Counted from the first letter of the stretch, positions 43,504 through 58,486 are shown. The stretch is 64,000 nt of DNA from Candidatus Eremiobacterota bacterium (GCA_031082125.1 JAVHLM010000019.1:1-64000), one strand, 5' to 3'. Notes: generated by a model from the sequence alone, not told the origin. Program-made: numbers and translations.

Positions 43504-44874
43504 TTGAAAATAGTCCTCATCGACGCCAGAGACACCGCTTACTATCCCCCTGTCATCGCCATGCCCCTGGGGCTCTGCTCTCTCGCTGCCTTTCTTCAGC
43601 ACCACATCCCTGAATGCCAGATAGTGATTAAAGAAGGTTATCAAAGCTCCGCCGATGACGACGCCGACCTCGTGGGAATCTCAACAGTAAGCCTCTTCTA
43701 TCCCCAGGCACTTTCCATCGCGAAGAACCTGAAGCTCACAAGGCCTGCACTTCCCGTCGTGCTCGGGGGAATTCATATAACGGCCCTCCCTCATACCCTC
43801 GACGATGCTTTTGATATCGGGGTGATCGGCGAAGGCGAGGAGACCTTTCTCGAGCTTGTGAGGCTGTTCCAGGGGACCGGAGCCCTGCCCGCCGATGAAC
43901 TGGGTCTGGTGAAAGGTATTGCCTTTCACCACGGTGGTAAAGTCATTATCACTGATCCGCGGCCTCTTATAAGGCCCCTCGATATTATCCCCCCGCCAAA
44001 GAGAGACCTCCTTGAAGAAACAAACCGCTTCATATTGCAGCAAACCTCAAGGGGATGCCCCTTCAGATGCTCCTTCTGTGCCCTCGTGGGATTCAACAGG
44101 ACATACAGGACCTTCTCACCTGGCTACGTGGTCTCAGAGCTGGAGGAAAATACCAGGGGGAAGAGCTTTACGGAGCTCTCCCTCGTGGACGACCTCTTCT
44201 CGGCCGATATAAAAAGGCTTGAAGCAATAGCCCGCATGGTGAAGGAAAGGGGGCTCCACCGGAAAATGTCGCTTGGCGCCACCATACGAGCCGACCTGGT
44301 GAGGGAAGAGACGCTTGAGATCCTGAAAAGCCTCCATGTGGCAAAAGTCTATATCGGCCTCGAATCAGGGTCCGACACCACTCTCGGCTACCTCAAGAAG
44401 AGCACTGTCACCGTGGCCCAGAACCAGCGGGCCCTTGATCTCTGCTACGGCGCCGGGATTCTCGTGGACGGCTCCTTTATCATCGGCGCCCCTTATGAAG
44501 AAAGAGAGGATTTCAAGGCAACCTATGAATTCATCTACCATAACTATAAAGCAGGAAAACTGGCCACGGTGCGCGTTGCGCCCCTTACCCCCTATCCGGG
44601 CTCTGCCGTCTGGGAATATGCAGCATCTAGAGGACTGGTGGGAGAAGATATGGACTGGGGTGCCCTGGAAATGTCCCTCGGCAGCTTTGACCCTTCAAGG
44701 TTTATCTACCTCAATGAGAAAATACCCCGCGTGGAATTCGTGAAATTCGTGGAAATATTCGAGGATCTCACCTCTTCCATCAACAGGCGCTTCCTCCGGC
44801 AGATCGGAATTGAGGAAAAATACGCAACACTTGACAGAGGGAGAGTGCAGCGCTATATGGAGAAACACTCCTGA
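43504..44874 (+). CDS. B12-binding radical SAM protein
   Basis: The 456-residue protein starts at TTG (43504) after the sequence GGGGAGACC. Residues 1-150 are a cobalamin-binding-like domain (PLGLCSLAAF, GGIHITALPHT and the GEGEETF segment). CPFRCSFC (Cys185, Cys189, Cys192) is the radical SAM cluster site, followed by LSLVDDLFSAD and the YIGLESGS strand. This class (BchE/Elp3-like layout) performs methylations, cyclisations or methylthiolations. The substrate is unknown. It is 13 nt from the preceding small gene, so may be cotranscribed. Confidence 0.82.
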   Translation: MKIVLIDARDTAYYPPVIAMPLGLCSLAAFLQHHIPECQIVIKEGYQSSADDDADLVGISTVSLFYPQALSIAKNLKLTRPALPVVLGGIHITALPHTLDDAFDIGVIGEGEETFLELVRLFQGTGALPADELGLVKGIAFHHGGKVIITDPRPLIRPLDIIPPPKRDLLEETNRFILQQTSRGCPFRCSFCALVGFNRTYRTFSPGYVVSELEENTRGKSFTELSLVDDLFSADIKRLEAIARMVKERGLHRKMSLGATIRADLVREETLEILKSLHVAKVYIGLESGSDTTLGYLKKSTVTVAQNQRALDLCYGAGILVDGSFIIGAPYEEREDFKATYEFIYHNYKAGKLATVRVAPLTPYPGSAVWEYAASRGLVGEDMDWGALEMSLGSFDPSRFIYLNEKIPRVEFVKFVEIFEDLTSSINRRFLRQIGIEEKYATLDRGRVQRYMEKHS

Positions 44875-44878
44875 TACC

Positions 44879-44907
44879 TTGACGAACGTCACACTCTCGA
44901 GTATAAT
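44879..44907 (+). promoter_or_regulatory. promoter of the DUF4912-GH57-EEP-Fic-PLD operon
   Basis: TTGACG (44879-44884), 17 nt, TATAAT (44902-44907), directly after the radical SAM stop. ACTCTCGAGT (44893-44902) overlaps the -10 box. A leader of about 190 nt precedes the first gene; no ORF or clear structure was seen in it. Confidence 0.75.
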
Positions 44908-45102: not shown

Positions 45103-46467
45103 ATGCTTCACGAAGAGAGCCGGGATCCTGAGAGCGAACAAGGAAACGATGCTCTTTTCCCTTTGGATCCTATTATTGACGCTATCCCGTCACTTGAGGA
45201 GCTCGGTGCTTCCGACTTGGAAGAGGCTGAGGAAGGTACTGTCCCTCCCGCCGCTTTGTTGAAGCCTGCTCAAGATGATCTGGCCGAGGAACCTTCTTCA
45301 GAAGATAAAAAGCCTGAAGAAGAGAGAGAACCGCTCCAAAGTGCCGGGAAGATCGGCATGGACATCAACGAGGACAGCGACGAGGACAGCGACGAAGAGG
45401 ATGACGAGGAGAGCAAAGACGACAGGAACCGCGACGAAGGCCTGAACGGGGACTCCGATGGCGATTCTGCCAAGGAAAGCGAAGAAATCCCCGGCGGCCA
45501 TGGAAAGGTCCCGCAACGGGCAGCTCCCTCAAGAAATAATGATCTCCCTGAATCCTATAACGAAGATATCCTGGTATTTCTCGTGCGCGATCCCTTCATG
45601 GCCTTTGCTTACTGGGACCTGAGCCTCCAGAGAAAGGAGCTGATTTATCAGCTCCCCGAGCTTGAAGTGCCCCAGGGACAGCTTTTCCTTAAAGTATACA
45701 AGGGCCTCAACAGGGCCGAGCTTCTCCGCGATCCCCAGATCCACGCCGAGCTCCCCATCACCGGCCTGACCCGCTCCTGTTACTTCGCCATTGATGAAGG
45801 GTTCGACGCTTACTGCGGCGCCATTGAATTTGTCCCCTTCTTTGACGAGCCATTGACAATTGCCCGCTCAAACACCATAACGCCTCCCAAGGCCTCGATG
45901 TCTGGAGAGCTCGATGAGGAATGGAAGGCAATCGAGAGGATATACAAGCGCTTCTATCAGCTTGTGAAGAGAGAGCAGACCCAGGACCAGCAGATCAAAG
46001 AGATGATCACCAAGGAGGAGCTTGAGGAGATTGAGCTGCTCCAGGATCTTGACAGGGAAGAGAAGATCGAGAAGGTGATGTTAGAGACCGTTTCCGCCGA
46101 GCAGGAAGAAAAAGGCTCCCTCCAGAAAGAAGTGTATGAAGCTTCTGCCCTCAGGGAGCCCCTGGCCTGGGAGGAAGTGCCTGCTGAAAGGGAGGCACAG
46201 AAAGAGCTTGATGCCCTTGAGAGCCTTGAAAGCCTCAGCGAGAGAGAGATTGAAAGCCATATTGAAAGAATAGCGGCTGAGACCGGCATTGCCAAGGAGA
46301 CGCTTGTCGCGATAAGAGAGCGCCGCCACGAAAGGACCGAGAAAAGGGCTCAGATTCTAAGGCGTCTTGTGGCACTCTACATACAGAAGCAGACCCCTTC
46401 CGGAGGCATCTATGGCCCGATATTTCCCCATGGGGCTCCCCCCCCTCTCCCTGATGAAAAGCCCTGA
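45103..46467 (+). CDS. DUF4912 protein with acidic linker and coiled coil
   Basis: The protein has 454 residues from the ATG at 45103, with GAGG 7 nt upstream; starts at 45043 or 45055 would lengthen it by up to 20 residues. An acidic Ser/Asp/Glu-rich segment (about 80-140) precedes a DUF4912-like domain (about 150-260: YNEDILVFLVRDPFMAFAYWDLS). Charged helices follow (REEKIEKVMLE and SEREIESHIERI), and a Pro/Gly-rich tail. DUF4912 proteins are commonly encoded beside GH57 amylolytic enzymes, as here; they may scaffold or target glycan metabolism. The function is unproven. Confidence 0.75.
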   Translation: MLHEESRDPESEQGNDALFPLDPIIDAIPSLEELGASDLEEAEEGTVPPAALLKPAQDDLAEEPSSEDKKPEEEREPLQSAGKIGMDINEDSDEDSDEEDDEESKDDRNRDEGLNGDSDGDSAKESEEIPGGHGKVPQRAAPSRNNDLPESYNEDILVFLVRDPFMAFAYWDLSLQRKELIYQLPELEVPQGQLFLKVYKGLNRAELLRDPQIHAELPITGLTRSCYFAIDEGFDAYCGAIEFVPFFDEPLTIARSNTITPPKASMSGELDEEWKAIERIYKRFYQLVKREQTQDQQIKEMITKEELEEIELLQDLDREEKIEKVMLETVSAEQEEKGSLQKEVYEASALREPLAWEEVPAEREAQKELDALESLESLSEREIESHIERIAAETGIAKETLVAIRERRHERTEKRAQILRRLVALYIQKQTPSGGIYGPIFPHGAPPPLPDEKP

Positions 46468-46521
46468 GAATCACTCCGCGCCACCCCATCCCGGCATTAC
46501 CCTCCGGAGGCGTTAAGCTCG

Positions 46522-48129
46522 ATGGAACAGGGTTATCTGATAATGGTCCTCCATGCCCACCTCCCTTTTGTAAGGCACCCCGAGTACAGAGACTCCTTTG
46601 AAGAAAAATGGCTCTATGAAGCAATTACAGAGACTTATATCCCCCTCATCCGCGTCTATCAGCAGCTTATAGAGCAGAATATCAACTTCAGGATCACTAT
46701 GTCGCTTACTCCGCCTCTTATGGAGATGCTTGCCGACGAACTGCTCCAGAAACGCTACGTGGCCCATATCGAGAAGCTCATAGAGCTTGCGGAAAAGGAA
46801 AAAACAAGAACGCGCAATGACCAGGAGTTCTACCCTCTGGCCCTCATGTACGAGCGCAAATTCAAAGAGGCCCGGGAAGTCTTCGTGGACCGTTATAAGA
46901 TGAACATCCTCACCGCTTTCAAGGAAATCAAGGATCACGGGTCACTTGAGATCATGACCTGCTGTGCCACCCATGGCTTCCTGCCCCTCATGGCCCTCCA
47001 CAAGGAAGCCGTAAGGGCGCAGATTTTCATAGCCGTCAGAAACTACCGCAAGCACATGGGCTCTTCGCCGAGAGGCATATGGCTTGCCGAATGCGGCTAT
47101 TACCCTCAGGATGACCTGATCCTCAAGGAGGCGGGAATAAAATTCTTCTTCGTGGATTCCCATGGCCTGATACTTGCCACGCCACGGCCCAAGTATGCCC
47201 TTTACTCGGCAGTGTACTGCCCTTCAGGCGTTGCGGTCTTCGCCCGCGACCCCGAGTCGTCTAAGCAGGTCTGGAGCTCCAAGGAAGGCTACCCCGGAGA
47301 TTTCGACTACCGCGAATTCTACCGCGACGTGGGATACGACCTGCCCATGGAGTATATAGCCCCCTATATCCACGAGAGCGGCATAAGGATCAATACGGGC
47401 GTCAAATACTACCGCATCACCGGTCCCACGGACCAGAAAAAGCCTTATGCCGAGGAGCGGGCTCTCGAAAAGACCAGAATCCATGCCCACCATTTCATCA
47501 TGAGCAGGGTCAAGCAGTCGGAGTACCTGAGAGAGATCATGGGACGGCTCCCTGTCATCACTTGCCCTTACGATGCAGAGCTTTACGGTCACTGGTGGTA
47601 CGAGGGCCCCCAATTCCTGAAAGCGGTCTTTGAAGGGATTGCAAAAGAGCAATACCCCATAAAGCCTGTAACTCCGATGGATTACCTGGAAATATACCCC
47701 GAGAACCCCGTTGCCACTCCCAGCCACTCAAGCTGGGGCCACAAGGGCTACTCGGAATATTGGCTTGAAGAGTGCAATGACTGGATTTACCGCCACCTCC
47801 ACAAGGCAGCGGAGCGGATGAATGCTCTGGCCACGACCTTCAGGGACGCCAGCGATCCCCTCACCGTGAGGGCTCTCAACCAGGCCGCGAGGGAACTGCT
47901 CCTTGCTCAGAGCAGCGACTGGGCCTTCATCATCAAGACCGCCACATGCGTCGAATACGCCGCGATGCGCACAAAAGAGCATGTGCTCAATTTTACCACC
48001 CTCTACGAGGAGATCATGGATCGCCGCGTCAATGAAACCTCCCTGATAAAGCTCGAAGAGAAAAACAACATTTTCAGTGAGATAGATTATCGCATTTATG
48101 CTTCGGATAAACCGGCGCAGGAGGCCTGA
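46522..48129 (+). CDS. GH57 family 1,4-alpha-glucan branching enzyme-like protein
   Basis: The 535-residue protein has HAHLPFVRHPEYR at the N-terminus, a typical GH57 start. The catalytic nucleophile is seen in WLAECGY (Glu190) and the acid/base in CPYDAELYGHWW (Asp351). The C-terminal helical DUF1957-like domain follows (ELLLAQSSDWAFI). Family members of this length make alpha-1,6 branches or act as 4-alpha-glucanotransferases on glycogen. It ends in TGATG, so the next gene starts within its stop. Confidence 0.88.
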   Translation: MEQGYLIMVLHAHLPFVRHPEYRDSFEEKWLYEAITETYIPLIRVYQQLIEQNINFRITMSLTPPLMEMLADELLQKRYVAHIEKLIELAEKEKTRTRNDQEFYPLALMYERKFKEAREVFVDRYKMNILTAFKEIKDHGSLEIMTCCATHGFLPLMALHKEAVRAQIFIAVRNYRKHMGSSPRGIWLAECGYYPQDDLILKEAGIKFFFVDSHGLILATPRPKYALYSAVYCPSGVAVFARDPESSKQVWSSKEGYPGDFDYREFYRDVGYDLPMEYIAPYIHESGIRINTGVKYYRITGPTDQKKPYAEERALEKTRIHAHHFIMSRVKQSEYLREIMGRLPVITCPYDAELYGHWWYEGPQFLKAVFEGIAKEQYPIKPVTPMDYLEIYPENPVATPSHSSWGHKGYSEYWLEECNDWIYRHLHKAAERMNALATTFRDASDPLTVRALNQAARELLLAQSSDWAFIIKTATCVEYAAMRTKEHVLNFTTLYEEIMDRRVNETSLIKLEEKNNIFSEIDYRIYASDKPAQEA

Positions 48130-48905
48130 TGAGAAGAAGAATAGCAAGACCTCTCGCACAACCAGTCGTGGTGGCGTCCTATAACCTCCATGGGACACAG
48201 GACAACGACTCTTCAAGATTTCCCGCCATTGCCAGGGAGCTTGCAGCCCACCGTGTCGATATCTGCGGCTTCCAGGAGGTGGTAAAGAGCGAGACAATAG
48301 AGGATACAAGCTACCAGGTGGCCCGGTACCTTTCACACCTCACGGGAACCAGGTACCACACCTACTGGGCTTTCTGCCATCCCTTCTATGACCGCTATCC
48401 CGAGGGAATCTCCATTCTCTCGAGGTTTCCCATCACCTCACCATCAGTGATAGACCTGGACGTGACGCTCAGGAGGGGGGCGAAGCCCCTCATGCCCAGG
48501 AAGGCACTAGCTGCCTCTATTGCAGTAAGGGGAAAAAGGATTATCTTTGTGACCCTCCATCTTGATCACCACCGGATGGCGGCAGTCCGCACCGCCCAGC
48601 TGACGCTGCTGCTGAGAAAGCTTTCTTCTCTTTACGGCATCAGGGGTATCCAGGGAACGGTGGTAACAGGCGACTTCAACGCCTCGGAGTGGTCAAGCCC
48701 GCTCAATCTGATGAAAAGAAGGAGCTTCAGAGACACTTACCGTCTTATCAACGGCTGGGGAGGGAATACCTTTCCCTCCTGCAGCCCTTCCTGCAGGATT
48801 GATTTTATCCTGCTGAAAGGAAGAATGAAGATCCTGAACAGCTACCTGATTCTCAAGGATTCCTGGATGAGCGATCATGCAGGCGTCCTCTCCATCATTA
48901 GGTAA
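48129..48905 (+). CDS. endonuclease/exonuclease/phosphatase (EEP) family protein
   Basis: The 258-residue protein is translationally coupled to GH57. EEP motifs are complete: VASYNLHG, GFQEV, VTLHLDHH, VTGDFNASEW, RIDFIL and a terminal SDHAGV. The fold cleaves phosphodiesters or phosphomonoesters in DNA, RNA, inositol phosphates or lipids. No signal peptide is seen, so the substrate is probably cytoplasmic. The substrate is not determinable here. Confidence 0.85.
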   Translation: MRRRIARPLAQPVVVASYNLHGTQDNDSSRFPAIARELAAHRVDICGFQEVVKSETIEDTSYQVARYLSHLTGTRYHTYWAFCHPFYDRYPEGISILSRFPITSPSVIDLDVTLRRGAKPLMPRKALAASIAVRGKRIIFVTLHLDHHRMAAVRTAQLTLLLRKLSSLYGIRGIQGTVVTGDFNASEWSSPLNLMKRRSFRDTYRLINGWGGNTFPSCSPSCRIDFILLKGRMKILNSYLILKDSWMSDHAGVLSIIR

Positions 48906-48933
48906 AATCGCTCCGGGAAAGGGGGGAGAGGGA

Positions 48934-50955
48934 ATGAACACAAGGACCGCGCCGGTCTATGAATGGGACCACAACTGCCAGAGAATCCACGAAACGCTCG
49001 AGAGAAATTTTTCCCACATAGGAAGGGAGCTCTATGAGCTTGAGCACTGCGGGGTGCCGGAGAGCCTCGGGGACCTCCTCAATTACTACAAGAAATGGCA
49101 TTACAACAACGAGCTCTTCACACAGAGCCAGGAGGAGGTGGTCTCCAGAAAAAAGGTCATTGAGAGCCTTTCAAAAAAAGGGTACGGTGTGAGCATTGAC
49201 CTGGCAAAGGATATGACCTCCTTCCAGATGAAGGAGCTCAAGTGGCGGCTCCAGGGCCTTCTCTATACCTTTTCGGTGCCCATCGGGAAAGTACGGGCCT
49301 CAATCTATCTCCCTCAGGCCCAGGAGCGAAACAGGAACTCTTCGTATATCATCAGGGAGCTCTGTAAAAAGCTGGGTAAAGACCCCGCCTCGGAGACTCC
49401 CGCTGCGGCGAAGCCTGCGCCGAGGCTCCCCATTGACCTCTTCCTGAGGATGGCAAAAGAGACACCGCCCCATGCCCACATGGCCCTTCTCAACAGGATG
49501 TTCCTTGAGCTCACCGAGGAATCGAGCACCATCATGGAGGGCTCAATCGGCGCCGTGAACGTGGACACACCGCAGCACCTCAAGTATATAGCCTCCAGGA
49601 ACCTGAGGGAGCTCTTCGGCTATCTCTACGACACCATCGGCCATGAGATCAGGATAGACCTGGACTGGATAAGAAAAATCCACTTTTTTCTCACGCGGGA
49701 CCTTGATCATTCCCACACATGGAGGGCAGGCGAGTTCCGCGGGGAGGACTTCGAGGACCGCAGCGGCCTCACTTTCGAATTTGGAAACTTCCAGAAAGGC
49801 CTTGAGGAGCTTTCAGAGTTCCTCGGCAAGGTAGACTGGGACATCGAGAACTTCAACAGGTTCACCTACAGCCTTGCCAGGCTCTACTACCTCCTCATCG
49901 GGATCCACCCATTTCTGGACAGCAACGGGAGAACGGCAAAGTGCCTCGTGAACCACCTCATGCTGAGGCGGGGCCTTCCGCCCATCATCTTCCACATGCA
50001 TGACGAGGTAATCTCGCTTCCCCGTTACGGCGGCAGCATACTGGAAATGCAGCACTATTTCCACCGCAGAATCGCCTCTTCGCTCGAGCATTACTTTTTT
50101 GAAAGAGAGAAGCTGGTACACTTCGGGAACCTTGAAAAGCACTTCTTTGGCGTCAACTTTGACGCCGGCTTCTATTTCAGGCACCTGAACGGCATCTTCC
50201 CGCTCATTGAGGTGGATTTCAAGGTCTATGTCCTGGACCGCTCCCATCACCTCTGGCAGCACTATATCAATCAATGCCGCATAGCCGTCCCCCGTGAGGA
50301 CCTCATCCCGTCGCTCATCATCTATTACGGGTTCACAAGGGAAGGCTCCCCCGAATGGGAGCACGAGGCGGAGCAGCCCCTGAGGGTGTGGTGGTTCCGC
50401 GGGAAGGATGCCAATGACATCCCTTACTTCGGCGCGACATGCTTCATTGAGCTTGGATGGCATCTTGCCTCATATGATTTCCTGGAAATCTCCCTGGCGT
50501 GCCCCCCCGAAGACCTTGGTTTTCTCAACAAGGATCTCAACTATCGCTACCGTATGGACCGCTCCCACCTTATGAAGATCGTGGGCAGCCATATAGCGGC
50601 CCTTCTGGGTGATACCCGGGCCCTGAATGACGAGGAGCTTGCCCCGCTGCGCGCCGCGAGGGACAGGCTTGAATGGCGCTCCTGCGAGGTGATCGACGGC
50701 TACCGCCTCCATGATCCTGAAGAAATGGCACTCCACAGGGCCCGGGCTCTCATGGAAAACAGCGATATCGCCGAAATCCTCAAGACAGTATTCATTCCCC
50801 AGCTCCTCCATCTGATCGGGAAGCACCATCTCACGGGAAGGGAAGACCCTGCCGACGGGGACAACCTGCTGGCGGTCCATCACTGCATCCAGGCATTTCT
50901 CCCTGCCACCGCCTACCTTGTCGGCTCCACCTTCTTCACTGAGAGGCCCCTATGA
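48934..50955 (+). CDS. large Fic-domain protein with inhibitory motif
   Basis: The protein has 673 residues from the ATG at 48934, behind a purine-rich GGGGGGAGAGGG. Residues about 180-370 are a Fic domain. STIMEG (198-203) fits the inhibitory [S/T]xxxE[G/N] helix, so activity is probably self-blocked. The active-site loop is HPFLDSNGRTAK (325-336), which has Ser for the usual Gly and Lys for the final Arg of HPFx[D/E]GNGRxxR. The catalytic His and Asn are kept. The N-terminal 180 and C-terminal 300 residues are unrecognised. Fic enzymes add AMP or other phosphoryl groups to proteins. It overlaps the PLD gene by ATGA. Confidence 0.82.
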   Translation: MNTRTAPVYEWDHNCQRIHETLERNFSHIGRELYELEHCGVPESLGDLLNYYKKWHYNNELFTQSQEEVVSRKKVIESLSKKGYGVSIDLAKDMTSFQMKELKWRLQGLLYTFSVPIGKVRASIYLPQAQERNRNSSYIIRELCKKLGKDPASETPAAAKPAPRLPIDLFLRMAKETPPHAHMALLNRMFLELTEESSTIMEGSIGAVNVDTPQHLKYIASRNLRELFGYLYDTIGHEIRIDLDWIRKIHFFLTRDLDHSHTWRAGEFRGEDFEDRSGLTFEFGNFQKGLEELSEFLGKVDWDIENFNRFTYSLARLYYLLIGIHPFLDSNGRTAKCLVNHLMLRRGLPPIIFHMHDEVISLPRYGGSILEMQHYFHRRIASSLEHYFFEREKLVHFGNLEKHFFGVNFDAGFYFRHLNGIFPLIEVDFKVYVLDRSHHLWQHYINQCRIAVPREDLIPSLIIYYGFTREGSPEWEHEAEQPLRVWWFRGKDANDIPYFGATCFIELGWHLASYDFLEISLACPPEDLGFLNKDLNYRYRMDRSHLMKIVGSHIAALLGDTRALNDEELAPLRAARDRLEWRSCEVIDGYRLHDPEEMALHRARALMENSDIAEILKTVFIPQLLHLIGKHHLTGREDPADGDNLLAVHHCIQAFLPATAYLVGSTFFTERPL

Positions 50956-52574
50956 GCGAAACCGCTGAACATTCTGCCATGCCGGCCTACAAATGGATAG
51001 AAGAGCCCAGAAAGGTGCAGAACATCCACGGCATGGAACTCTGGCACTTCAACGGGGGAATAGGCTTCAGGGTCAGAAACTACGGCCCCTCCAAGTCACT
51101 GGTGATAAGGCTCTCACTTTACAGGGAGGATAACACCATTGAGTATTATCTCATGAGGGCCTATTTTGTCGAGCCATGGGGTCAAGAGCATGAAAAATGG
51201 CAGACCCATCAGCTCGTGCTTTTTCCTTACGAGAGCCTCCATGGCGCTGTCAACATCGTCACCTTTTCCTACCTGCTCCATAAGGATGGGCGGGCCATCC
51301 CTTCGGAGTATGAATACAAATTTGCCCGCCGAGAGGATTTTTTCAGGGCTTACGTGGAGCAGGGGGATTTCCACGAAGAGCATTTCAAGCGCAGAAGCTC
51401 CTATTACGTAGAGGACATAAGCTCCCATGCGCTTCAGAATGCCCTCCACTCAATACGCACCGAAAGGCAGAATGTGCCCATGAAGCCCTTCTTCACGAGG
51501 GGTGATCCGGGGGCGCCGGGGCACCCTGCAGGGGAGATCCATGCCATGCTTGACAGAGTGCTGGAGGCGAAGCACAGGGACCCCCATGGCAGGCACTACG
51601 TGCATCTTGCCATATTCAACTTTGAGAATGAGCACATTGCCAACCACCTGCTTCACCTCCACTCCCAGGGTGTGGAGGTTGAGTGCCTGGGCGGGTGGGA
51701 GCAGGTGAGCTCAGCCGACTGGTCGTGGGATGTGGCAAGGCTGCGTCGTGGAGGGATCCCTGTGTACGGCGTGGTAAGAAACACGCCCTATTCGCCCCAT
51801 GAGGGCATTGCCAGCATGCACACGAAAATCATGCTTTTTGACGGGCAGGCCGTCATGTCGGCCTCCTATAACCTGGACTTCCACCGCTGGGGAGGAAACT
51901 GGGAAAACGGCATCTTCTATTACTCGCCGCCCGTGAGCCTCCTCTATGAGCACGTGTACCAGGCTGTCAAGGGAGCGGTGGTCAAAAACCTTGCCATTAC
52001 GCTGAACGACTGGTACAACCTCTACTACACCCTTGGAGTCTCACACGTGCATGACGGCACCCTCATCTCGCCCTGTGATGCCCTGGCCCATGAGATCTAC
52101 AGGGCACAGACCTCCATATTTATTGCCATGTTTGACCTCGGAGACTTCACTCTCAAAGGCCCCCACTCGCGGGGGGTGAACCTTGTCGAGGCCCTCACCG
52201 AGGCTCACCGGAGGGGCGTGTATCTCGTGATCCTTCTGAACGGTTACAGGGCAGAACAGGAGCTCCCTCTCCCCGAAGACGGTGAATCGGTAAGGCCCTT
52301 GAAACCCGTTATCCAGCATCTGCTGGAGCAGGGGATAGAGGTGCTTCTCCTCTATTATCAAGACTCGCCCTATTCGCCCCTTCACCACAAATTCGCCGTC
52401 TTTGACGAGGAGACTGTCATCGCCGAATCGACGAACTGGTACTCTGCGAGCCTTTACTCTGACGAGGTCTTTTCCGTCATCAGGGACGGGAACCTTGCCC
52501 GCGAGTATATCGGCGAGCTGTTCCTGATGCTGAAAAAGTTCCGCATCCGCAGGGGGAGTGAAGTCTGGGTCTAG
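50952..52574 (+). CDS. phospholipase D-like protein with two HKD motifs
   Basis: The 540-residue protein has a beta-rich N-terminal domain (about 20-150), unrecognised but reminiscent of an Ig or carbohydrate-binding fold. Two HxKx4D motifs follow: MHTKIMLFDG and LHHKFAVFDE. Both are complete, as in phospholipase D, cardiolipin synthase and PLD-type nucleases. Two motifs in one chain would form one active site. There is no signal peptide or transmembrane helix. The gene closes the operon; the next gene is convergent, 3 nt away. Confidence 0.83.
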   Translation: MSETAEHSAMPAYKWIEEPRKVQNIHGMELWHFNGGIGFRVRNYGPSKSLVIRLSLYREDNTIEYYLMRAYFVEPWGQEHEKWQTHQLVLFPYESLHGAVNIVTFSYLLHKDGRAIPSEYEYKFARREDFFRAYVEQGDFHEEHFKRRSSYYVEDISSHALQNALHSIRTERQNVPMKPFFTRGDPGAPGHPAGEIHAMLDRVLEAKHRDPHGRHYVHLAIFNFENEHIANHLLHLHSQGVEVECLGGWEQVSSADWSWDVARLRRGGIPVYGVVRNTPYSPHEGIASMHTKIMLFDGQAVMSASYNLDFHRWGGNWENGIFYYSPPVSLLYEHVYQAVKGAVVKNLAITLNDWYNLYYTLGVSHVHDGTLISPCDALAHEIYRAQTSIFIAMFDLGDFTLKGPHSRGVNLVEALTEAHRRGVYLVILLNGYRAEQELPLPEDGESVRPLKPVIQHLLEQGIEVLLLYYQDSPYSPLHHKFAVFDEETVIAESTNWYSASLYSDEVFSVIRDGNLAREYIGELFLMLKKFRIRRGSEVWV

Positions 52575-53782: not shown

Positions 53783-56700
53783 ATGAGCGACATAATTGAA
53801 CATCTCAAATTCGTCAGGTGTGTCGATTTCAGCCTTGAGGAGAGCGGTCTTCTTTTCATAGGCGATTACGGCGAGCGCTTCTTCCCATGGGACTCCCTGA
53901 GGTATTGTTTCAGCGTGATTCTGAAGAAGAAGAACATCCCCTATCCCCTTTTCATTCTCATATCCCAGGAGACGGACAGGATTTACTACATAGACGGCAA
54001 CATCGCCTCGACGAAGTATTTCAGCGCCTACAAGGCAAAATCCCACGGCCATGGGACCCTTTCCCGTGAACCCCGCAAGGCAAGGGAGATTGGTTTTCAG
54101 AGAATGCTCGCCGTGCTCTGTGCACGTCTCACCAAGGCTTACATAGATAAGCCTCTTATCGGCTACCTCCGGGGCAATATCTTCCTGCTCCCCTCTTTTG
54201 CCACCCTGAAAGAAATCTCTGATTACTGCACCAGGATCATACAAACAGTGTCAGAAGAGGAGATGAAGGGCGCAACCCTCCTTGAAGTCCAGGATGACAG
54301 CCTTAACAAGAAAGCAGTCACCACCAGGGAGCGCCAGGAGTGGAATGAAGGCGACATGGTGCTTGACGGAAGATTCACGGTGCAGGAAGTGAAAAGAGGC
54401 GGCATGGGAACGGTTTATATCGTCTTTGATCCCGAAAACGTGAGGTTCCTCGCCATCAAAACCTTCCAGGAGCGCTACCTCTGGGACGAGAGAATCGTCA
54501 AGCAGTTCATCAAGGAGGCGGAAATCTGGATCAAGCTTGACAGGCATATCAACATCGTGCAGGCCGAGCTGGTCAAGGTGATAGACGGGAAGCCTCACAT
54601 ATTTCTTGAATACATCCAGGGAACAGATCTTGAGAAGCTTACCAGAGAATCACCCCTGTCCGTGGAGCAGAGCCTGAAGTTTGCCATCCAGTTCTGCGAG
54701 GGCATGCACTATGCCTTTAAAAAGCTGGGCCTTATCCACCGCGATATCAAGCCCTCCAACTGCCTCATCACCAGGGAGGGCCTCCTCAAGATAAGCGACT
54801 TCGGCCTCGGAAAGATCTTTGACGAAACGGGCACCGATGCCGATCTCATAAGCTTCCAGATAAAGGAGAAAAGAAAGAGGACCACCACCACCTCCACGGC
54901 AATGGTGGGAACCCTCCCCTTCATGGCCCCCGAGCTCTTCAGCTCCCTCAAGACGCAGAACCGCAAGACCGACATTTACTCTTTCGGTGTGCTTCTTTAC
55001 ATAATGCTCACCGGAACGAATCCTTTCTTCAGCGAAGACCCCCTGGAAGTAATTTCCAACCAGAAGAACCTTACTCCCCGGAATCCCCTGGAATTCAACG
55101 ATAAGATCCCTGAAAGCCTTGCAACCCTTACCCTGAAGTGCCTGGAGAAAAATCCCGACAGAAGGTACAGCGATTTCTCAGAGATAAAGGTGGAGCTTGA
55201 AAGCATTTACCGTGAAACCGCCGGGGCAGATTACGAGGTATTGCGGAACGAGACGGTCTTTACCGAGGATGACTGGGTGAACAAGGGCATCTCCCTCGCC
55301 TCACTTGGCCGCCACAGGGAAGCCCTTATCACTTTCGATCAGGCACTTCATATCAATGAGAGCTCCCTCAGGGCCTATATATTCAAAAGCTCTTCGCTGA
55401 TAGCGATGGGCCGGATAAGGGAATCCCTCGCCTGCATAGAGGACGGCATGAGGCGCGACGAGAGGAACTGGGAGCTCTGGCTCCAGTGCGGCGAGGCCCA
55501 CTGGAAGCTTGGCGGCAGGGATAAAGCATTCGAGTGCTTTGAGCACGCCCTTAACCTCACTGACGACAAGGCGCCCATCCTGGGGAGAAAGGGAGCGCTC
55601 CTTGCCGAGATGGGAAAAATCGACGAAGCCATCCTCTGCTATAATGAGGCTCTTGCGCAGTACCCGCGCGCATCGGAGATATGGAATGAAAAAGGGAGGC
55701 TTCTCATCCTGCTCCACAGGAATGAGGAGGCCCTTGAATGCAACAATGAGGCCCTCAGGATCAATCCCCGCTTCAAGGAGGCCTGGTATCAGAGGGGAGT
55801 GGCCCTCTTTCACCTGGGTCACTTCCAGGAGGCCCTGAGCGCCGCGGAAAAAGTGCTTGCACTGGACCAGGAGTCAGCTGACGCCTGGGTCCTTATCGGA
55901 AAATGCAGGAGAGACATGGACGACTCCGAGAAGGCCATGGAAGCCTGGAACAACGCCATAAGAATCCAGCCGGACAACATGGATGCCTTTTTTTCCAGCA
56001 TCAGCCTTCTTCAGGAGCTCGCCCGCAGCGAAGAGGCCCTCCAGATCCTGGACAGTGCCATTGAGGTGGAGCCTGACAGCACCAGACTGCTCCTGAAGAG
56101 AGCCGAGCTCCTCTTCCACTTCGCCTCTTACGAGGAGGCCCTTGCCCTCACTGAGATAGTGATGGAGTCCGAGCCGGATAACCAGGATGGGGCCTCCATA
56201 ATGAATTCATTGACCCTTTTCATTGAAGAGCAGCAATCTTTTTCAAGGAGAATCCGCTCACTCCTCGTCATTCCGAGGAGCTTCAGCGATCTCAACAGCC
56301 TTCTCTGCATCTACTGCAACCTCGACGAGGCGGGCGGAGTGATAGAAGATGGCGAAGATGAGAGCCCCCTCAGGAGCTCCCTGAAAGCCTCCCTTGCCTT
56401 TATTGCGGGAGACGACGAAAAGTGTCTCAAGAGCCTCGCACCTCTTATCGGCAACGACCAGTTCTCCCACCAGATAACCATGCTCAGGAACCTTATCGAG
56501 GAGAGGCAGGTGAGCAATAGAAATGTTCCGGTGAAAAAAGGAGGCTTAATCGGCTCTTTCTTCAAAAAATCAGCACTGGATGAGCGCTCAGCCGAGGAGC
56601 TTCTGATAAGGGGCCTTGAAAAGCTTCGGCGCTACGAGGCACAGGAGGCGGCAGAGCTTCTTAAAGAGGCTTATCAGAAGGATCCGCGACTCAAGTGCTG

Positions 56701-58486
56701 CCGATTCTTCACAGGCAAAGCCTACGACCTTCAAGGCTCGCCTGAAAAAGCTCAGCCTTATTATGAAGATTTCATATCCCAGTTTCCCCTTTCAATTGGA
56801 TACTGGAAAGAGCGCCTCAAGACTACGAGAAGCCTTGATCCGAACTTTGTGGAATATACCTTCCACAAATGGATTGCCGCATCATCGAAGGATTCGACTC
56901 CATGGAAGGAATATTTCGCCTATCTCTACGAAAATGACTACCGTCAGAAGCTCGATATCATTGCCTCCTTCCTGATAAAAAACAGCTTCATGCCCTGGAG
57001 TCCCCAGGGGAAAGAGCTTTGCCATATGAAGGGGCTTCTCCACTATTCCCTGGGGAATTACAGCTCTTCCATGAAATCCTTCATGGAGGCCCTTGAAGCC
57101 GACCGCAGCGACAGGACCACGCTCACAGGGATAGGCCGTTGCCACGAGGCCCTGAGCTTTCCCCAGCAGGCACAGGAATATTACGAGCTTCTTCTCGAAC
57201 AGGAGGAGACTCAGGATCTGGCAGGCTTTTTCGTGGCGGACCTTTACCTGAAAAGAGGAATGCCTGAAGAGGCTCTCGATATGGTGGAAGAGCTTCTCGC
57301 AGGAAAGGGGATTTCTCCCCTCCTTGCCCTGAAGAAGGCTGAAATCATCGCAGCTTTAGGGAAGTACTCCGAGTTTTTTGATTACTGCAGCGGGATAGAA
57401 CTTCCCGACGAGATGCTTATATCTTTTAAAATGCTGAGAGCCCGGATTCTGGCCGATCAACAGAGGCTGAACGACGCCATCGCGGAGATCACAGGTGTGT
57501 ACCTCTCCGATCCTTACTACCTTCCCGTGGCAAAGTGCCTGGGCTTTCTCTACCTGAGGGCCCAGAATTATCATAAGGCCCTGGCCCTCTTTGACGGGAT
57601 CATCGTGGCTTTTCCGCTGGATTACGAGATAAGCCTTGGGAAAGGCATCACCTTCTACCTCATGAGAAATTATGCCGAGGCCCTTCTCTATTTTATAAAA
57701 GCCCAGGAACTCAATCCCTTTGACAGGGAAATCTGGCATTATCTCGGTGCCACTTATTTCCACCTGAAAAAGCAGCAGGAGTCAGAAAAGTGCTGGGAAA
57801 AGGCCCTCAGCTCCGGGAGCAAGGGAGCCGCCGCCTGGGCCAACAAGGCAGCATTCCTTTACCACACCGGAAAATACCGTGAAGCTCTTGAAATGGCCGG
57901 GCGGTCCCTCTACCTTGAAAAGACGGTCCATGGATGGCTTACCCATTCCCGCTGCCACTGGAAGCTCGGGAATATCAAGGAGGCGATCAGGAGCGCCGAA
58001 AATGCCGTATCCCACTCTCCCCATCTCGCCACATGCTGGGTTCTGAGAGGTCTCCTGGAATTCCAGCTCAAAAACTATGAAACATGCAGCCAGAGCTTTG
58101 AAAAGGCTTCAAAGATTGAGAACAAGCACCCGGTAATATGGTATGACAAGGCCCTTCTTGCCCTTCTCACCAACAGCCACACTGAAGCAAAAAAAGCTCT
58201 CGACAGAGCCATTGCACTGAATCCATCATTTTTTGAGGCCTTTATCGCCCGCTACGCTCTCGCCGAGGAAAAGGAGCATATGGGCCACATGCTTCTCTCA
58301 CAGGCCCAGAAGGCTGACCCGGTGAAATTTGAGGCCTGGTCCGGGGCTTACGAGTCCTCCCGCAATGTCCTCGCAACACTTGCTCCCCTTGAGCTGGAAG
58401 AGGATCCTTTTTCCCTTCCCCTCAACAGGGCCATTCCTGCCTCTCCTGCCGTCGATCTCTTCCATCTGGTCCTCAAGGGCCGGTAA
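53783..58486 (+). CDS. Ser/Thr protein kinase fused to a very long TPR array
   Basis: The 1567-residue protein has an unrecognised N-terminal domain (1-185), then a Hanks-type kinase (about 195-480). Motifs include KRGGMGTVY (204-212), Lys226, HRDIKPSN (319-326), DFG (339-341) and APE (382-384), so it should be active. More than 1000 residues of TPR-like repeats follow (for example LWLQCGEAHWKLGGRDKAFE and LARFLALF-like units), ending in a tail shared with the TPR protein at 40402. There is no transmembrane segment. TPRs probably recruit substrates or sense partners. There is no strong ribosome binding site at its ATG. Confidence 0.88.
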   Translation: MSDIIEHLKFVRCVDFSLEESGLLFIGDYGERFFPWDSLRYCFSVILKKKNIPYPLFILISQETDRIYYIDGNIASTKYFSAYKAKSHGHGTLSREPRKAREIGFQRMLAVLCARLTKAYIDKPLIGYLRGNIFLLPSFATLKEISDYCTRIIQTVSEEEMKGATLLEVQDDSLNKKAVTTRERQEWNEGDMVLDGRFTVQEVKRGGMGTVYIVFDPENVRFLAIKTFQERYLWDERIVKQFIKEAEIWIKLDRHINIVQAELVKVIDGKPHIFLEYIQGTDLEKLTRESPLSVEQSLKFAIQFCEGMHYAFKKLGLIHRDIKPSNCLITREGLLKISDFGLGKIFDETGTDADLISFQIKEKRKRTTTTSTAMVGTLPFMAPELFSSLKTQNRKTDIYSFGVLLYIMLTGTNPFFSEDPLEVISNQKNLTPRNPLEFNDKIPESLATLTLKCLEKNPDRRYSDFSEIKVELESIYRETAGADYEVLRNETVFTEDDWVNKGISLASLGRHREALITFDQALHINESSLRAYIFKSSSLIAMGRIRESLACIEDGMRRDERNWELWLQCGEAHWKLGGRDKAFECFEHALNLTDDKAPILGRKGALLAEMGKIDEAILCYNEALAQYPRASEIWNEKGRLLILLHRNEEALECNNEALRINPRFKEAWYQRGVALFHLGHFQEALSAAEKVLALDQESADAWVLIGKCRRDMDDSEKAMEAWNNAIRIQPDNMDAFFSSISLLQELARSEEALQILDSAIEVEPDSTRLLLKRAELLFHFASYEEALALTEIVMESEPDNQDGASIMNSLTLFIEEQQSFSRRIRSLLVIPRSFSDLNSLLCIYCNLDEAGGVIEDGEDESPLRSSLKASLAFIAGDDEKCLKSLAPLIGNDQFSHQITMLRNLIEERQVSNRNVPVKKGGLIGSFFKKSALDERSAEELLIRGLEKLRRYEAQEAAELLKEAYQKDPRLKCCRFFTGKAYDLQGSPEKAQPYYEDFISQFPLSIGYWKERLKTTRSLDPNFVEYTFHKWIAASSKDSTPWKEYFAYLYENDYRQKLDIIASFLIKNSFMPWSPQGKELCHMKGLLHYSLGNYSSSMKSFMEALEADRSDRTTLTGIGRCHEALSFPQQAQEYYELLLEQEETQDLAGFFVADLYLKRGMPEEALDMVEELLAGKGISPLLALKKAEIIAALGKYSEFFDYCSGIELPDEMLISFKMLRARILADQQRLNDAIAEITGVYLSDPYYLPVAKCLGFLYLRAQNYHKALALFDGIIVAFPLDYEISLGKGITFYLMRNYAEALLYFIKAQELNPFDREIWHYLGATYFHLKKQQESEKCWEKALSSGSKGAAAWANKAAFLYHTGKYREALEMAGRSLYLEKTVHGWLTHSRCHWKLGNIKEAIRSAENAVSHSPHLATCWVLRGLLEFQLKNYETCSQSFEKASKIENKHPVIWYDKALLALLTNSHTEAKKALDRAIALNPSFFEAFIARYALAEEKEHMGHMLLSQAQKADPVKFEAWSGAYESSRNVLATLAPLELEEDPFSLPLNRAIPASPAVDLFHLVLKGR

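Follow-up and report, generated by a model that had tools for sequence, protein, structure and literature searches.

The window analysed here is a stretch of 64,000 nucleotides from a Candidatus Eremiobacterota bacterium. Between its positions 45103 and 52574 lie five open reading frames, collinear and all on the plus strand, which encode in turn a DUF4912 protein, a GH57 protein, an EEP-fold protein, a Fic protein and a PLD protein (Table 1). In a Pfam search of the window proteins each of the five families exceeded its cut-off, so that reading frames and domains together bear out the order, strand and positions given in an earlier note on this DNA. The overlaps which that note had read at two of the four junctions are present in the sequence, TGATG where the GH57 and EEP genes meet and ATGA where Fic gives way to PLD; the remaining junctions are gaps of 54 nt (DUF4912-GH57) and 28 nt (EEP-Fic), the latter counted from the likely start of the Fic gene, the ATG at 48934. 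The promoter which the note had placed in front of the five genes has a counterpart, as a consensus match, in a predicted sigma-70-like site; when the 228-nt leader was shuffled 500 times with its dinucleotides kept, an equally good site arose once. An Rfam search of the window returned no RNA element.

Table 1. Features of the five-gene locus, in window coordinates
Feature	Position	Strand	Basis and remarks
Sigma-70-like promoter, TTGACG-17-TATAAT	44879..44907	+	Predicted; consensus scan, 11/12; ahead of the five genes
DUF4912 protein	45103..46467	+	Pfam PF16258, E 1e-13; domain at residues 152-272
GH57 1,4-alpha-glucan branching enzyme	46522..48129	+	Pfam GH57 1.5e-36, BE_C 1.2e-36
EEP-fold phosphodiesterase	48129..48905	+	Pfam PF03372 (Exo_endo_phos) 1.2e-18; TGATG overlap with GH57
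Fic protein	48934..50955	+	Pfam PF02661 3.2e-10; frame open from 48877
Fic inhibitory-type motif STIMEG, Glu221	49525..49542	+	Residues 217-222, numbered from 48877
Fic active-site motif HPFLDSNGR	49906..49932	+	Residues 344-352, numbered from 48877
Fic C-terminal beta-sandwich domain	50152..50571	+	AF2 model, pLDDT 82
Fic C-terminal extension	50572..50955	+	Absent from aligned homologues
Double-HKD PLD-superfamily protein	50952..52574	+	Pfam PLDc_2, two stretches, 1.5e-31; ATGA overlap with Fic
CBM21-like N-terminal domain of PLD	50979..51332	+	AF2 model, pLDDT 79; Foldseek
First HKD motif, HTKIMLFD	51819..51842	+	With SASYN segment
Second HKD motif, HHKFAVFD	52383..52406	+	With AESTN segment

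The surroundings of the last three genes (EEP-Fic-PLD, hereafter the trio) have some features in common with other genomes. Upstream of the trio, both the window (43504-44874) and locus L019 (L019:5160-6509) have radical SAM genes that fall into one sequence cluster, probably a coincidence in a large family. On the other side, 3' of the PLD gene, the window has a kinase-TPR gene (53783-58486), and genome G007, the only other one with the trio in the sample of the window's phylum, has separate TPR and kinase-like genes in that place (L108:12030-15160). Both genomes seem rich in kinase/TPR genes.

The first two genes form a familiar pair. The GH57 protein has both the GH57 and the BE_C domain, which places it among the GH57 branching enzymes; it matches the NCBIfam branching-enzyme model at 1e-104, yet stays below the equivalog cut-offs (Thermococcales and Thermus enzymes). 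To our knowledge, the pair of DUF4912 and GH57 branching-enzyme genes normally occurs without Fic, EEP or PLD. The window has the same two families in the same order, but here they stand directly upstream of the trio. The full order of five genes, with DUF4912 in the same position relative to GH57, recurs at locus L012 in Candidatus Magnetomicrobium cryptolimnococcus (Nitrospirota). As the window and L012 are the only places where the pair heads the trio, the suggestion that all five genes always travel together could not be upheld, and we rejected the five genes as a conserved unit.

The conserved core is the trio itself. When the same 346 Nitrospirota genomes were searched with each of its members, Fic was found in 13 genomes; the set of genomes with EEP is identical, and PLD occurs in all of these and in one more (G288). 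The probability of this overlap is about 1e-23 if the genomes are independent, a figure which their relatedness inflates, the true one being less extreme. In each of the 13 genomes with Fic, EEP is the gene immediately before it, and 11 of them preserve the full order EEP-Fic-PLD, two small ORFs separating Fic from PLD in one. The order is also found in two Desulfobacterota genomes, the contig at L021 holding only the end of EEP; upstream EEP and Fic homologues at the PLD loci were read as far as the contigs reach. In a scan of genome contigs, full-length relatives of the PLD protein were 44-48% identical to it in Nitrospirota and the two Desulfobacterota and 30% identical in Myxococcota; the figure for full-length Fic relatives is 34-39%. 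Some genomes have the genes dispersed. PLD is on a different contig from EEP-Fic in G069 and G300, it stands apart at L018, with Fic and EEP on another contig, and in G007 the three genes occupy three separate contigs. Since the genes are dispersed and yet all three are retained, the link between them appears to be functional rather than a matter of hitchhiking, and this dispersal without loss is a stronger argument for coupling than the co-occurrence probability.

The module is rare (13/346 Nitrospirota, 1/345 in the Desulfobacterota sample), and a PLD query found it in 2/149 genomes of the window's phylum, the second being G007. It is present in one copy per genome. A tree of the Fic sequences groups them largely by phylum, with the window and G007 as sisters on long branches outside Nitrospirota and Desulfobacterota. 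The association of EEP, Fic and PLD is real and evolutionarily coupled, as the earlier note had supposed, given the shared order in Nitrospirota and Desulfobacterota and the identical set of Nitrospirota genomes. The situation in which that note would have called it accidental, with Fic and PLD usually elsewhere and the order confined to this genome, is not what we found. Within the literature searched, no paper brings together as many as three of the four subjects Fic protein, phospholipase D, EEP and gene neighbourhood, and DUF4912 is mentioned in unrelated work only.

All the catalytic motifs of the EEP protein (NLHG, QEV, HLDH, GDFN, RID and SDH) are intact in the window, and the catalytic residues are kept in complete homologues, apart from one or two substitutions at L106 and L107. 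Profile comparison gave 3teb, nocturnin, Angel2 and TDP2 as the nearest solved structures. The Nitrospirota and L019 forms carry an N-terminal addition with tandem HTH-like repeats, which is absent from the window and G007 forms. In Nitrospirota (L012:6695-7516 and equivalents) this region has a short hydrophobic start, about 100 residues that belong to no known family, and a pair of HTH_23-like repeats; it resembles the adaptor-like regions of bacterial conflict proteins.

The Fic protein belongs, at the level of its motif, to the active AMP transferase type of the Fic/DOC family, with an intact active-site motif and a PF02661 score above the cut-off. HPFxDxNGR is present in all 23 Fic sequences, the window's included, and has Ser in the usual Gly position in 21. 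The class II inhibitory motif, (S/T)xxxE(G/N), can be recognised in the window protein but is no feature of the family as a whole: the inhibitory Glu occurs in the window and L019 only, and the other 21 of the 23 sequences have Lys or Arg in its place, within a T(I/L)M(E/K/R)G segment with a trailing (S/T) that is kept around the substituted position. The description of this Fic as self-inhibited agrees, as far as the motif goes, with the Glu221 of the window protein; the Lys or Arg of the other 21 sequences suggests a different regulatory contact. The C-terminal beta-sandwich domain had no Pfam match, and Foldseek returned generic Ig-like folds only, with no CBM21 among the top 50 matches. 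A conserved motif of NNKGLNY type at its end has some likeness to CBM21 and might be followed as a lead only; the domain was rejected as a CBM21 on the negative Pfam and hhalign results and the generic character of its fold matches. The idea that it forms one family with the N-terminal domain of the PLD protein was likewise dropped, as hhalign shows no relation between the two.

The PLD protein is a member of its superfamily by virtue of two complete HxKx4D motifs, both conserved in complete homologues. The top seven PDB matches of its N-terminal domain in Foldseek are all CBM21 (E 9.2e-4 to 7.2e-3, prob 1.00), the structures matched being those of PTG, PPP1R3B and Rhizopus glucoamylase; the model is of moderate confidence and the TM-scores to these matches range from 0.32 to 0.55. 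Since the Fic domain, also a beta-sandwich, has no CBM21 among its top 50, the match of the PLD domain is not mere Ig-likeness. Pfam found no CBM_21 profile match in it at E <= 10, and hhalign against a small CBM21 set gave a probability of 0.3%. With these sequence methods negative, an assignment to CBM21 by sequence was rejected, and we term the domain, with moderate confidence, CBM21-like rather than a member of the CBM21 family. In G007, a 235-residue protein of two CBM21 domains (L111:1474-2178) is encoded next to a serine/threonine kinase gene.

Neighbours, fusions and the predicted fold of the PLD domain are lines of evidence separate from each other, and all three connect the trio with glycogen. 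A branching-enzyme gene adjoins it in 4 of about 18 trio loci; besides the GH57 gene of the window and L012, this can be GlgB, of the unrelated family GH13, which adjoins PLD in L017 and L021. At L019, GlgA and a GalT-like gene lie about 3.5 kb upstream of the trio. No glycogen gene was recognised within view at about 13 of the 18 loci. Among the fusions, a Myxococcota homologue of the PLD protein (L024:9737-11761) combines the shared N-terminal domain with a C-terminal CBM20 (E 3e-22); Fic of the window's type was not found in this Myxococcota genome. The Nitrospirota genome G288 has a divergent EEP with N-terminal CBM_21 domains (L123:1049-2557; Pfam 1.8e-19), located directly before a PLD gene whose product has an N-terminal domain of the same family as that of the window PLD; the contig ends at the PLD gene. 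Fic was not found in G288 at E <= 1e-30, though EEP-CBM21 and PLD are present, so that Fic may not be obligatory. The presence of glycogen synthase, found in 25/25 genomes tested, was rejected as support because it is near-universal and thus uninformative, 12/14 controls having it as well. On the strength of neighbours, fusions and fold we consider a role of the trio in glycogen metabolism likely, and the guess in the earlier note at a regulated glycogen system gains support to that extent.

What this role might consist of is suggested by the chemistry of the three families. Fic enzymes make phosphodiesters by nucleotide transfer, and EEP and PLD enzymes hydrolyse phosphodiesters. With the set conserved and glucan-binding domains on its hydrolases, a writer and its erasers acting at the glycogen particle are the simplest reading. 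As writer, Fic would take the nucleotide monophosphate part of an NTP, most likely AMP, and place it on a hydroxyl group of an enzyme associated with glycogen, for example a branching enzyme or the synthase. The phosphodiester so made would be hydrolysed by EEP as the eraser, and PLD, anchored to the glucan through its CBM21-like domain, would contribute another phosphodiesterase activity. Branching or synthesis of glycogen would in this way come under reversible control, and the local glucan would form part of the signal. We offer such a switch as a serious possibility, falling somewhat short of a probable one. The conserved order, the co-occurrence, the intact motifs, the branching-enzyme neighbours and the CBMs on EEP and PLD relatives are its computed foundations; from these we infer the transfer of a nucleotide, the identity of the target, which phosphodiesterase erases and in which direction regulation would run. 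TDP2 is an enzyme that breaks 5'-phosphotyrosyl bonds, the kind of linkage that AMP-tyrosine also contains, and we count the profile match of EEP to it in favour of the eraser chemistry. Counting against the glycogen switch are the moderate confidence of the CBM21-like assignment, the small share of trio loci with an adjoining branching-enzyme gene, the HTH-like repeats on the Nitrospirota and L019 EEP, which suggest DNA binding, the Lys or Arg that most Fic homologues have at the regulatory Glu, and the failure to find Fic in G288. A precedent for a nuclease-type phosphodiesterase that removes AMP from proteins is RNase Z, a deAMPylase paired with the SelO AMPylase (PMC12663964). In that system the eraser acts on metabolic enzymes; the folds are unrelated, it has no link to glycogen, and gene coupling of the present kind is not known there.

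The alternative that survives best keeps the connection with glycogen and moves the modification onto the glucan. The glucose hydroxyls would receive from Fic a phospho-group, which could be an NMP or else the half of ADP- or UDP-glucose that carries the sugar phosphate, and the resulting diesters would be substrates for hydrolysis by EEP and PLD; AnkX, which uses CDP-choline, and laforin, which removes glycogen phosphate, provide likenesses. In its favour, the CBMs are on the phosphodiesterases themselves (CBM21-like on PLD, CBM21 on the L123 EEP, CBM20 on the Myxococcota PLD), the presence of two such enzymes that differ in fold would make sense if there were two kinds of diester, and the EEP-PLD pair at L123 does exist without Fic. 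However, Fic enzymes are known for protein targets, and we know of no Fic that modifies a glucan. We regard this alternative as unlikely, but as one to be kept in mind.

Less probable still is that the trio is a functional unit whose glycogen genes and CBMs are incidental, and which controls, for instance, phosphodiesters of the membrane or a nucleotide used in signalling. Phospholipids are frequent substrates in the PLD superfamily, the EEP of Nitrospirota begins with a short hydrophobic stretch, and the many trio loci without a recognised glycogen gene nearby would find an easy explanation. It would be left to chance, however, that in four lineages the trio has a branching-enzyme gene beside it, from one or other of two unrelated families, and that CBM21-like, CBM20 or CBM21 modules are found on three different relatives of PLD or EEP.

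A defence-like module with Fic modification as its switch had been put forward in the earlier note as the other option. In the form considered here, a defence or abortive module directed at nucleic acids, with EEP and PLD as nucleases and Fic as toxin or switch, we think it improbable. The HTH repeats on the Nitrospirota EEP would fit it, as would an AAA_21 ATPase and an RloB-like gene after the trio at L007 (L007:11778-13656, Candidatus Magnetobacterium casense) and HsdM after the trio at L019, but these are the only two loci among those examined with a defence-type neighbour. PLD shows a weak likeness to DrmC and NucT, as does Fic to models of candidate defence Fic proteins; the PADLOC matches are, however, generic domain matches. 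With DrmC of DISARM and other defence PLDs, the window protein shares the HKD fold of the superfamily, but it scores 33 bits against a cut-off of 133 for DrmC and no partner genes lie beside it, on which grounds DISARM and other PADLOC defence systems were rejected. Searches of plasmids and phages found no relative, and viral contigs gave weak generic Fic matches only. The single copy per genome and the largely phylum-wise Fic tree also speak against defence, for which branching-enzyme neighbours and starch-binding modules would be unexpected. That the gene order is an accident of the window genome hardly deserves belief, for although PLD is scarce in this phylum and the genes are scattered in G007, the order is conserved in two other phyla and EEP and Fic co-occur perfectly in Nitrospirota.

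The proposed switch, with Fic as writer and EEP and PLD as erasers, differs from the AMPylation systems to which it may be compared (FICD-BiP; SidM/SidD on Rab1; GlnE). It has the intact HPFxDxNGR motif, and phosphodiesterase-type genes lie beside the putative writer; the erasers would have EEP and PLD folds in place of a phosphatase fold or an eraser activity in the same enzyme, the setting would be glycogen, and 21/23 sequences have Lys or Arg at the position of the regulatory Glu. Another parallel is with the glycogen-targeting subunits of PP1, PTG/PPP1R3C and PPP1R3B, whose CBM21 domains are the closest folds to the PLD N-terminus, with no detectable sequence homology. Here, too, the domain would bring the eraser of a modification to glycogen, but it is bacterial and fused to the phosphodiesterase itself, and nucleotidylation would take the place of phosphorylation as the modification. 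A reversible bacterial nucleotidylation switch on a glycogen-bound target or on the glucan, with a Fic writer and EEP/PLD erasers held by CBMs, has no described counterpart; we find it plausible while stopping short of calling it the likely outcome.

In bacteria, the control of glycogen is generally presented as allosteric, and a conserved covalent switch with a tie to the glucan would bring in another level of regulation. If true, such a switch would be the functional counterpart of what kinases and phosphatases targeted to glycogen do in eukaryotes. It would also provide one Fic family with a physiological role, and make EEP and PLD enzymes possible erasers of nucleotidyl modifications.
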